Source: Rhizobium sp. NFR03 (lineage in GTDB: Bacteria > Pseudomonadota > Alphaproteobacteria > Rhizobiales > Rhizobiaceae). From it: DNA of 64,000 nucleotides. Of the stretch, positions 8,662 through 11,676 are shown piece after piece. The stretch is from assembly GCF_900111275.1 (NCBI RefSeq), contig NZ_FOGR01000003.1, positions 496,001 to 560,000 of the forward strand, written 5' to 3'. The position numbers and the translations under genes are program-made. Below the pieces are notes generated by a model that saw only the letters and a list, made by a program, of their open reading frames with translations, was not told where the DNA came from and did not search any database. Every line of letters begins with the position of its first letter. Position 1 is the stretch's first letter.

Positions 8662-9603
8662 TTACAGTACGGCTGCGAGAACGGCTTCGATATCGGCCGG
8701 CGAATTGACCGCGAGCCCCGTGACGGATTTGTCGATGCGGCGCGCAAGCCCGGTCAGGACCTTGCCGGAGCCGACCTCGTAAAGCGTCGTGACCCCGTTT
8801 GCACCGAACCACTCCACGGTTTCGCGCCAGCGCACCTGCCCCGTGACCTGCTCGACCAAGAGATCGACGATCTCGTCGGCCGAGGTGACGGGAGCGGCAC
8901 GGACGTTGGCTATCAAAGGCACGACAGGATCGTGGCGTTCCACGGTTGCCAGCGCCTGCCGCATGGCATCCGCCGCAGGCGCCATCAAAGCAGAATGAAA
9001 CGGCGCGGATACAGGCAGAATGATGGCACGCTTCGCACCGTTCTCGCTGGCCTGCTTTGCGGCCTTTTCCACGGCCTGCCTGTCGCCGGAAATCACGATC
9101 TGCCCGCCGCCATTGTCGTTGGCGATCTGGCACGGGCCGATCTCCGACATGTCGGCGCAGAGCGCCTGGACGGCGTCATGATCGAGCCCGATGATCGCAG
9201 CCATTGCGCCCTCGCCCACAGGCACGGCCGCCTGCATAGCGTTGCCGCGAATCCGCAGAAGGCGGGCGGTATCGGCCAGAGAAAAGGTGCCGGCAGCACA
9301 GAGAGCCGAATATTCGCCGAGAGAGTGACCGGCAACGAACTGGACATGCTTGGCAAGATCGAGCCCGCGAGCTTCCAGAACCCTGACGGCAGCGACCGAG
9401 ACGGCCATCAGCGCCGGCTGGGCATTGGCCGTCAGCGTCAGCCGATCTTCCGGGCCGTTCCACATGACATCCGAAAGCTTCTCGCCCAGAGCATCATCGA
9501 CCTCGGCGAAAACGGCAGACGCTTCTGGAAAAGCCTCCGCGAGATCGCGCCCCATGCCAACCGCCTGGCTGCCCTGTCCCGGAAACGTAAATGCGATCGC
9601 CAT
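8662..9603 (-). CDS. fabD: Malonyl-CoA:ACP transacylase
   Basis: A 313-residue enzyme that loads malonate from CoA onto ACP. It begins MAIAFTFPGQGSQAVGMG, the FabD signature, and shows the active-site serine in AGHSLGEYSAL near residue 93 and the catalytic His in SAPFHSALMAPA near 205. A strong AGGAGG sits six bases before the ATG. It is the first gene of the fabD-fabG-acpP-fabF group; the upstream 290 bp carries a tandem repeat but no other gene. Confidence 0.97.
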   Translation of the reverse strand: MAIAFTFPGQGSQAVGMGRDLAEAFPEASAVFAEVDDALGEKLSDVMWNGPEDRLTLTANAQPALMAVSVAAVRVLEARGLDLAKHVQFVAGHSLGEYSALCAAGTFSLADTARLLRIRGNAMQAAVPVGEGAMAAIIGLDHDAVQALCADMSEIGPCQIANDNGGGQIVISGDRQAVEKAAKQASENGAKRAIILPVSAPFHSALMAPAADAMRQALATVERHDPVVPLIANVRAAPVTSADEIVDLLVEQVTGQVRWRETVEWFGANGVTTLYEVGSGKVLTGLARRIDKSVTGLAVNSPADIEAVLAAVL

Positions 9604-9793
9604 GACGAACCTCCTGAATTTTTGGCTTCTCCATTCACATTAAGGGCGGGCGAGTCAAGGAGCGAGGGGAAATGCCGGCGGGGAAGCACGACCTCGTGAA
9701 GGCTTCGCGAGACCCCGATGCGTCCCCTGAAGCGCTTGACCTTGTGCCGATGCCGATTATGTTGCGTCGCAGCAGGGCGCGAGCATTTTTCGC

Positions 9794-9844
9794 GGATCAC
9801 CCTCTTTCGTGGATCACCCTTCTTCATGGATCACCCCTCTTCAT
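9794..9844. repeat. 17-bp direct tandem repeat, three units plus a partial fourth
   Basis: Three consecutive 17-bp units start at 9794, 9811 and 9828, each beginning GGATCACCC and ending TTCGT or TTCAT. A fourth partial unit (AGATCACA) starts at 9845. The block ends about 43 bp before the aldo/keto reductase ATG. It falls in the divergent promoter region between fabD and that gene. Confidence 0.8.
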
Positions 9845-9894
9845 AGATCACAAGGGACCGGGTCTCCGGTCTCGTTCGACAAGGTCATTCCTTC

Positions 9895-10938
9895 ATGCAG
9901 TATAAACAACTCGGCCGCACCGGCATCGAGGTCTCCACCATTTGCCTGGGGACCATGACGTGGGGATCGCAGAACACGCAGGACGAGGCCTTCGCCCAGC
10001 TCGACGCCTCTGTCGAAGCCGGGGTGAACTTCATCGATACGGCGGAACTCTACCCGACGACGCCCCTTTCGGAAGCGACCTATGGCGGCACCGAACGGAT
10101 CATCGGGAACTGGTTGGCGGAGCGCGGCAACCGCGACCGGATCGTGCTCGCAACCAAGATCGCCGGATCGGGCCGCAATTACATTCGCGGCGGCGGCCCT
10201 ATGACGGCCGACGGCATCGTGACGGCGCTCGACGCCAGCCTTGAGCGATTGCAGACCGACCATGTCGACCTCTACCAGCTGCACTGGCCGAACCGTGGAC
10301 ATTATCACTTCCGCAATGCCTGGAGCTACGATCCGAGCAAGCAGGACACCGACAAGGTGGTCGAGGATCTCGGCGCGCTGCTGCATGCGCTCGACACGCA
10401 GGTAAAAGCGGGGAAGATCCGGGCGGTCGGCGTGTCCAACGATACGGTGTGGGGCACCCAGAAGCTGCTCGATCTCGCCGAGCGCCACGGCCTGCCACGG
10501 GTCGCCTCCGTACAGAACGAGTACAACCTTCTCTATCGTCCGCACGATCTCGATTTTGCCGAGCTGTCGCATCACGAATCGGTCGGACTTCTCGCCTATT
10601 CGCCGCTTGCCGCCGGGCTGCTGTCCGGCAAATATATCGGTGGATCGCGGCCGGATGGCAGCCGCCTGTCGATCAACGGCGACCTTGGCGGTCGTTTCAC
10701 ACCACATCAGGAGCCGGCGGTCGAGGCCTATGTGGCGCTTGCCCGCGACCACGGGCTCGACCCGTCTCAGCTGGCGCTCGCCTTCGTGCTCTCGCGCCCC
10801 TTCACGACATCCGCCATCATCGGCGCGACGACGATGGAGCAGCTCGACATCAATCTCGGCGCCGCCGATCTGGCGCTGACACCGGAACTGGTCAACGGCA
10901 TTCGCCGGATCCACCGCCTCTATCCGATGCCGATCTGA
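9895..10938 (+). CDS. Aldo/keto reductase, Tas family
   Basis: A 347-residue NADP(H)-dependent TIM-barrel reductase, close in layout to E. coli Tas. Visible are MQYKQLGRTGIEVSTICLGT at the start, the catalytic Asp and Tyr in FIDTAELYP near residue 45, Lys in VLATKIAGSG, and His in LYQLHWPNRG near 127. The GVSNDTVWG motif and C-terminal GATTMEQLDINL fit the family. The substrate is unknown; family members act on small aldehydes. The gene stands alone between the fab cluster and the rpsF operon. The ATG is preceded only by a weak AAGG-like element. Confidence 0.92.
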   Translation: MQYKQLGRTGIEVSTICLGTMTWGSQNTQDEAFAQLDASVEAGVNFIDTAELYPTTPLSEATYGGTERIIGNWLAERGNRDRIVLATKIAGSGRNYIRGGGPMTADGIVTALDASLERLQTDHVDLYQLHWPNRGHYHFRNAWSYDPSKQDTDKVVEDLGALLHALDTQVKAGKIRAVGVSNDTVWGTQKLLDLAERHGLPRVASVQNEYNLLYRPHDLDFAELSHHESVGLLAYSPLAAGLLSGKYIGGSRPDGSRLSINGDLGGRFTPHQEPAVEAYVALARDHGLDPSQLALAFVLSRPFTTSAIIGATTMEQLDINLGAADLALTPELVNGIRRIHRLYPMPI

Positions 10939-11010: not shown

Positions 11011-11235
11011 CCGCCCTGTTCGAAACACCCGGTCCATCTGGCTGGTGGCTGAACGGAGGGCCGGCGCTCTTGTAGTGCCTGTCGGGATCCTGAAGGGATC
11101 CAGCCTCCCGTGTCTCCGCTCTCGACCGTCTCGAAACAACACTTTCTTGCCGATGCCTCGCGCGTCCTTAAGAACAGTCGTTGAGGCTTAGCGCCGTTGC
11201 CGGGTGACGTTAAACGCAAGAAAGGTAAGCCAATC

Positions 11236-11676
11236 ATGGCTCTCTATGAACATGTGTTCCTGGCCCGCCAGGACGTGTCCGCACAGCAGGTCGAAGCCCT
11301 CGTCGAACAGTACAAGGGTGTGATCGAAGCCAATGGCGGCAAGGTCGGCCGGGTGGAAAACTGGGGCCTCAAGTCCCTCACCTACCGTATCGCCAAGAAC
11401 CGCAAGGCTCACTACGTCCTCATGGACATCGATGCTCCGGCACCGGCCGTCCACGAAGTCGAGCGCCAGATGCGCATCAACGAAGACGTTCTTCGTTACA
11501 TGACCATCGCTGTCGAAAAGCATGAAGACGGCCCGTCCGCCATGATGCAGAAGCGTGACCGCGACGACCGTCCCCGCCGTGACGGCGACCGTCCGGACCG
11601 GGGCTTCGGCGACCGTCCGCGCCGTGATGGCGACCGCGAAGATCGTCCGCGCCGTCCGCGCGAAGACCGCGTTTAA
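11236..11676 (+). CDS. rpsF: Ribosomal protein S6 with an Arg/Asp-rich tail
   Basis: A 146-residue small-subunit protein that binds 16S rRNA together with S18. The first about 95 residues ([15 protein letters not shown] to [10 protein letters not shown]) are the S6 fold. The remaining about 45 residues are low-complexity repeats of [13 protein letters not shown] type, a common extension in rhizobial S6. The start is the ATG at 11236 after AAGAAAGGTAAGCC; the open frame upstream is not conserved sequence. It is followed by rpsR after 20 bp. Confidence 0.97.

Follow-up and report, generated by a model that had tools for sequence, protein, structure and literature searches.

A 17-bp sequence is repeated in tandem between fabD and a divergent aldo-keto reductase gene of Rhizobium sp. 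NFR03, and the locus raises the question of whether these units form a variable device that adjusts expression of the reductase, a set of binding sites, or an ordinary duplication that has been kept since it arose. The window is the whole stretch of 64,000 nucleotides that was analysed, and all coordinates refer to it; comparisons within the genus use seven genomes, one per species, designated G000 (the window genome) and G001 to G006.

Extent and placement of the array

TRF confirms both the period of 17 bp and the location that the initial annotation had given for this direct repeat; the proposed extent of three full units and one partial unit at 9794-9851 is broadly right but too short on the left, as the array consists of four units spanning 9784-9851 in the spacer between fabD and the reductase gene (9604-9894; Table 1). 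Position 9794 falls within unit 1. The first unit differs from the second at 3 of 17 bases in the window and at 1 of 17 in G002, which displays a complete unit 1. Units 1-3 share an exact GGATCAC core, which becomes AGATCAC in unit 4, and AAGGGACC stands directly 3' of that last unit.

Table 1. Coordinates of the array and of the features around it
Feature	Position	Strand	Sequence or basis
fabD, ACP S-malonyltransferase, divergent neighbour	8662-9603	-	TIGR00128, 321.4 bits (cut-off 260.9)
fabD-side promoter-like block (candidate)	~9630-9664	-	TTGACT ... on the - strand; recognised by eye, absent from the consensus-scan report
Predicted sigma-70 promoter of reductase	9736-9763	+	TTGACC-N16-TATGTT; consensus scan, 1 found, 0.1 expected
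Unit 1	9784-9800	+	CATTTTTCGCGGATCAC; G002 copy nearer to the remaining units
Unit 2	9801-9817	+	CCTCTTTCGTGGATCAC; identical to the lone unit of G001
Unit 3	9818-9834	+	CCTTCTTCATGGATCAC
Unit 4	9835-9851	+	CCCTCTTCATAGATCAC; diverged furthest among the units
Leader hairpin	9854-9873	+	Core GACCGG-GTCT-CCGGTC at 9856-9871
Probable Shine-Dalgarno AAGG	9881-9884	+	Invariant in 6 aligned genomes; putative role
Aldo-keto reductase, Tas-like, 347 aa	9895-10938	+	Profile and structure-database matches

The TRF score of the array, 79, is the highest of the 25 TRF rows in the window and exceeds the best score both in 5000 dinucleotide shuffles of the spacer 9604-9894 (62, with any row scoring at least 30 in 226 of the 5000) and in 200 shuffled versions of the complete window (75). 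When TRF is run on 400 kb of the same contig, 3 of 174 rows score at least 79, and arrays of such score are not rare in the host genome. The window contains four copies of the sequence GGATCACCC, compared with an expectation of 0.81; a count of four is reached in 1 of 100 shuffles, and three of the four copies are inside the array. Assembly error is an unlikely source of the array because G002, a separate genome, carries the same one.

The reductase belongs to PF00248 and appears to be closest to the Tas type, given its matches to NF007912 (E 5.2e-104; 348.3 bits, under the curated cut-off of 415) and to PDB 1lqa, 'Tas protein' (E 8.3e-88). The start of fabD and a shared block, compared by eye, suggest that the divergent order of the two genes may recur in many relatives; the fabD-side promoter-like block, separated from the array by about 120 bp, is likewise seen by eye upstream in many relatives. 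Elsewhere in the window, a 21-bp imperfect tandem repeat at 11565-11636 (TRF score 68) lies within the open frame 11197-11676, which we take to resemble ribosomal protein S6, and encodes its Arg/Asp-rich tail.

The predicted reductase promoter is the only promoter-like site reported by the scan of 9600-9920 and resembles the rhizobial consensus CTTGAC-N17-CTATAT, as given in PMC2873474; the promoter stretch 9731-9763 is identical at 33/33 positions in G002 and at 29-31/33 in G001, G003, G004 and G005. Because this sole predicted promoter lies upstream, the array, 21-88 nt downstream of the predicted -10 element, probably belongs to the 5' leader of the reductase mRNA and is outside the promoter core, the transcript start being a predicted one. 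A promoter repeat would lie within or upstream of the promoter core, and the only site predicted in 9600-9920 precedes the array; the assignment of the repeat to the promoter region by the initial annotation is thus not upheld. Its description as lying just before the reductase ATG is loose, with 43 nt between the array end and the ATG.

A terminator-like element, a GC-rich stem with a run of five T, is present at 9762-9790 (scan: 1 found, 0.4 expected); by sequence G002 is without the T run owing to two differences in unit 1. Three candidates were rejected. Read by eye, a frame that crosses the array begins with an ATG at the -10 element, but a leader peptide is not favoured, as this ATG is inside the predicted promoter and single-base differences in leader length break the frame between species. 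A shared operator would be represented by TATGTTGCGTCGCA, which follows the promoter; at two mismatches or fewer it matches at 21 places in the host genome and the reversed control at 16, which is no clear enrichment. For an interspersed repeat family, the queries used found no second locus.

Unit number among relatives and history of the array

Four units are present in G000 and G002 and one in G001, G003, G004 and G005, while no unit is recognisable at the locus in G006. The ATG follows the -10 element at 137 nt in both carriers and at 86-87 nt in the four one-unit genomes; the gap relative to the carriers is 51 bp (3 x 17) with matching flanks in G001, G004 and G005, and comes to 52 gap columns in G003 through one further base. 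The locus thereby shows the marks of a lineage-specific duplication, namely a single-copy state in relatives and a length difference of whole units with matching flanks. The repeat could have lain outside any transcript or promoter and been absent from relatives, a possibility raised at the outset; it lies in a predicted leader and is carried by G002.

Across the family, a pattern of three spaced GGATCAC units with at most one mismatch, which would miss more diverged arrays, matches 2 of 394 genomes, G000 and G002 only. A TRF array scoring at least 50 in the 350 nt upstream of the reductase is found in 1 of 47 named relatives, whose stretches were drawn from 80 loci and include three congeners, and its unit is different; the region upstream of the reductase is therefore no general repeat hotspot.

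The reductase gene tree groups G000 with G002 at a support of 1.000 (other supports 0.89). In our reading, parsimony favours a single gain on their stem, as the reverse requires several losses. Comparison of the orthologous units of G000 and G002 shows no difference over the 51 sites of units 2-4 and two over the 17 of unit 1, whereas units of the same array differ mutually at 1 to 6 of 17; on this contrast, the array is considered old and stable and not hypervariable. It appears to predate the split of the two species, with no sign of later reshuffling in the units compared. The unit identities further point to stepwise duplication: in G002, unit 1 is the same as the lone unit of G004 and unit 2 the same as that of G001, units 3 and 4 have changes in common, and unit 4 is the furthest diverged.

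Unit number was initially proposed to vary between strains by slippage, and in its strong form this would make the array a phase-variable or rheostat locus whose shifting unit number tunes the reductase. Variation is found broadly, between species, and such loci exist in other bacteria according to PMC3899988; however, both carriers have four units and these units are not homogenised, with up to 6/17 differences within the array as against none between the orthologous units 2-4. A rapidly slipping repeat would give the opposite pattern of identities. Ongoing slippage is disfavoured by the equal unit number in the carriers, the identity of their orthologous units 2-4 and the extent of difference within the array; moreover, slippage acts poorly on degenerate units of 17 bp. 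A hypervariable locus is accordingly regarded as improbable.

The preferred reading, at a probability of about 0.7, is that stepwise tandem duplication of a 17-bp segment in the conserved leader of the Tas-like reductase produced four units in an ancestor shared by two sister species of one Rhizobiaceae genus, and that the array has since remained stable. The ancestral state would be one unit, and the gain would have come about through slippage during replication or through unequal recombination; the duplication is ordinary in kind and clade-specific.

Leader conservation and possible functions of the units

The leader outside the array (9764-9783 and 9852-9894) shows higher conservation than the mid-spacer. 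Identity to G000 in leader versus mid-spacer is 60/63 versus 51/66 in G001, 60/63 versus 49/66 in G004, 57/62 versus 47/66 in G005 and 55/62 versus 31/65 in G003, with p from 0.004 to 6e-7 over these four comparisons; the count left out G006. This conservation, seen in the five nearer congeners, is a more functional-looking feature than the array itself, and the same two segments are a possible uncharacterised cis element. The core of the leader hairpin has 15 of 16 bases invariant across six aligned genomes, and the hairpin is present in the predicted minimum-energy folds of four of six (G000, G002, G003 and G004, and not G001 or G005). Under the preferred reading, the duplication would have lengthened the leader by 51 nt upstream of an unchanged module of hairpin and ribosome-binding site, most likely altering expression little or only modestly.

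Changes between the two carriers hint that units 2-4 may be under constraint, i.e. not simply neutral. For these units, a stretch chosen post hoc, 0/51 changes compare with 6/66 in the mid-spacer (Fisher p 0.035) and with 33/347 at reductase third positions (Fisher p 0.013). The whole stretch from the -35 element to the ATG has 4/164 changes, which gives p 0.035 against the mid-spacer (6/66) and p 0.14 against the middle together with the fabD side (8/127). The absence of change in units 2-4 counts against a simply neutral duplication. Unit 4 differs from the units of congeners at 5-7 of 17 bases (29-41%) versus a third-position divergence of 20-25% in the reductase; such divergence is not expected from plain duplication followed by neutral drift, and it too counts against the preferred reading.

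These observations bear on the possibility that a regulator or an RNA-binding factor acts on the leader through the units, as repeated sites at a spacing of 17 bp, and that their multiplication strengthened this control in two species. The lone unit is located in a leader conserved above the mid-spacer (55-60 of 62-63 versus 31-51 of 65-66 positions), GGATCAC is retained in every unit save one base of unit 4, and the invariance of units 2-4 between carriers is also in its favor. Against such sites, the pattern TYNTGGATCACCCN{0,3}CTTC matches the host genome solely in the array, to which the three-unit pattern is also confined; by the patterns used there is thus no sign of a regulon, and the lack of the unit at other genes of the host genome argues against an array of regulator sites. 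A spacing of 17 bp is no helical period, and, downstream of the start point, action would be possible solely as a roadblock or in the RNA. We know of no motif that matches the unit. Rfam has no match at gathering score over the whole window. Binding sites are for these reasons considered unlikely, though the least so of the alternatives. More doubtful still is a fuller version, in which the conserved leader would act in this genus as a cis-regulatory RNA of a kind not yet described, with the pyrimidine-rich GGATCAC unit as its putative binding element, multiplied fourfold in two species and kept by selection.

It was also suggested at the outset that unit number could tune expression. Leaders with one to four units were folded in silico with the start assumed at 9770: the ribosome-binding stretch keeps a mean unpaired probability of 0.61-0.63 throughout, while the mean exposure of AAGG, mostly paired in every case, falls slightly and stepwise (0.26, 0.22, 0.19 and 0.15 with one, two, three and four units). 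This fall would suit a tunable locus and counts against the preferred reading; however, the natural one-unit leaders have AAGG exposures of about 0.10, 0.22, 0.55 and 0.05, a spread larger than the one-versus-four-unit difference, and the four-unit leader of G002 has 0.12. Tuning through a simple exposure mechanism is not well supported by these folds, and start-site masking by the array was set aside, the fall being slight and inconsistent across the natural one-unit leaders.

Translation could also be reached by mimicry, if the repeat imitated the 3' end of 16S rRNA, which we take to be GGATCACCTCCTTTC, and paired with the purine-rich Shine-Dalgarno-like sequence of the same leader. Positions 9794-9808, at the junction of units 1 and 2, match this end at 13 of 15 bases, and a pattern allowing up to two mismatches has nine matches in the host genome against one for the reversed control. 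Eight of the nine, however, are elsewhere in the genome and none is exact, the assembly being without an exact match to the assumed end; the likeness exists only across the junction of duplicated units, and AAGG exposure in the folds depends only slightly on unit number. Mimicry, under which the CCCTCTTT parts would matter for translation, is very improbable.

If the duplication is ordinary, as preferred here, the locus would be a tidy example of clade-specific leader lengthening, with sister species that retain the one-unit state; should the unit prove to be a binding element, the six unit-bearing species would form a natural one-versus-four series for leader control of this reductase in rhizobia.

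Comparison with known repeat systems

Expression-tuning tandem repeats in promoters are exemplified by the TAAA repeat of nadA and the TA repeats of hifA/hifB, as described in PMC3899988. The reductase array is like these in consisting of tandem units upstream of a gene whose number differs between genomes; in contrast to them, its units are longer, imperfect and downstream of the predicted promoter, and their number is the same in both carriers. Intergenic TAACTGA direct repeats are abundant in Beggiatoaceae, where PMC4679880 suggests a post-transcriptional role; the reductase array shares with them its nature as direct repeats between genes, but the Beggiatoaceae repeats form many sets per genome, whereas the reductase array is confined to one locus by the patterns used. 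Among the matches listed for literature on repeats and start sites, no title concerns a reductase-leader array. Ordinary lineage-specific tandem duplication in intergenic spacers is a known kind of event. The reductase array differs from such duplications in lying within a conserved leader and in that it may be under constraint; it resembles them in the single unit of congeners, the clean 3 x 17 bp difference with matching flanks and the restriction to a single clade.
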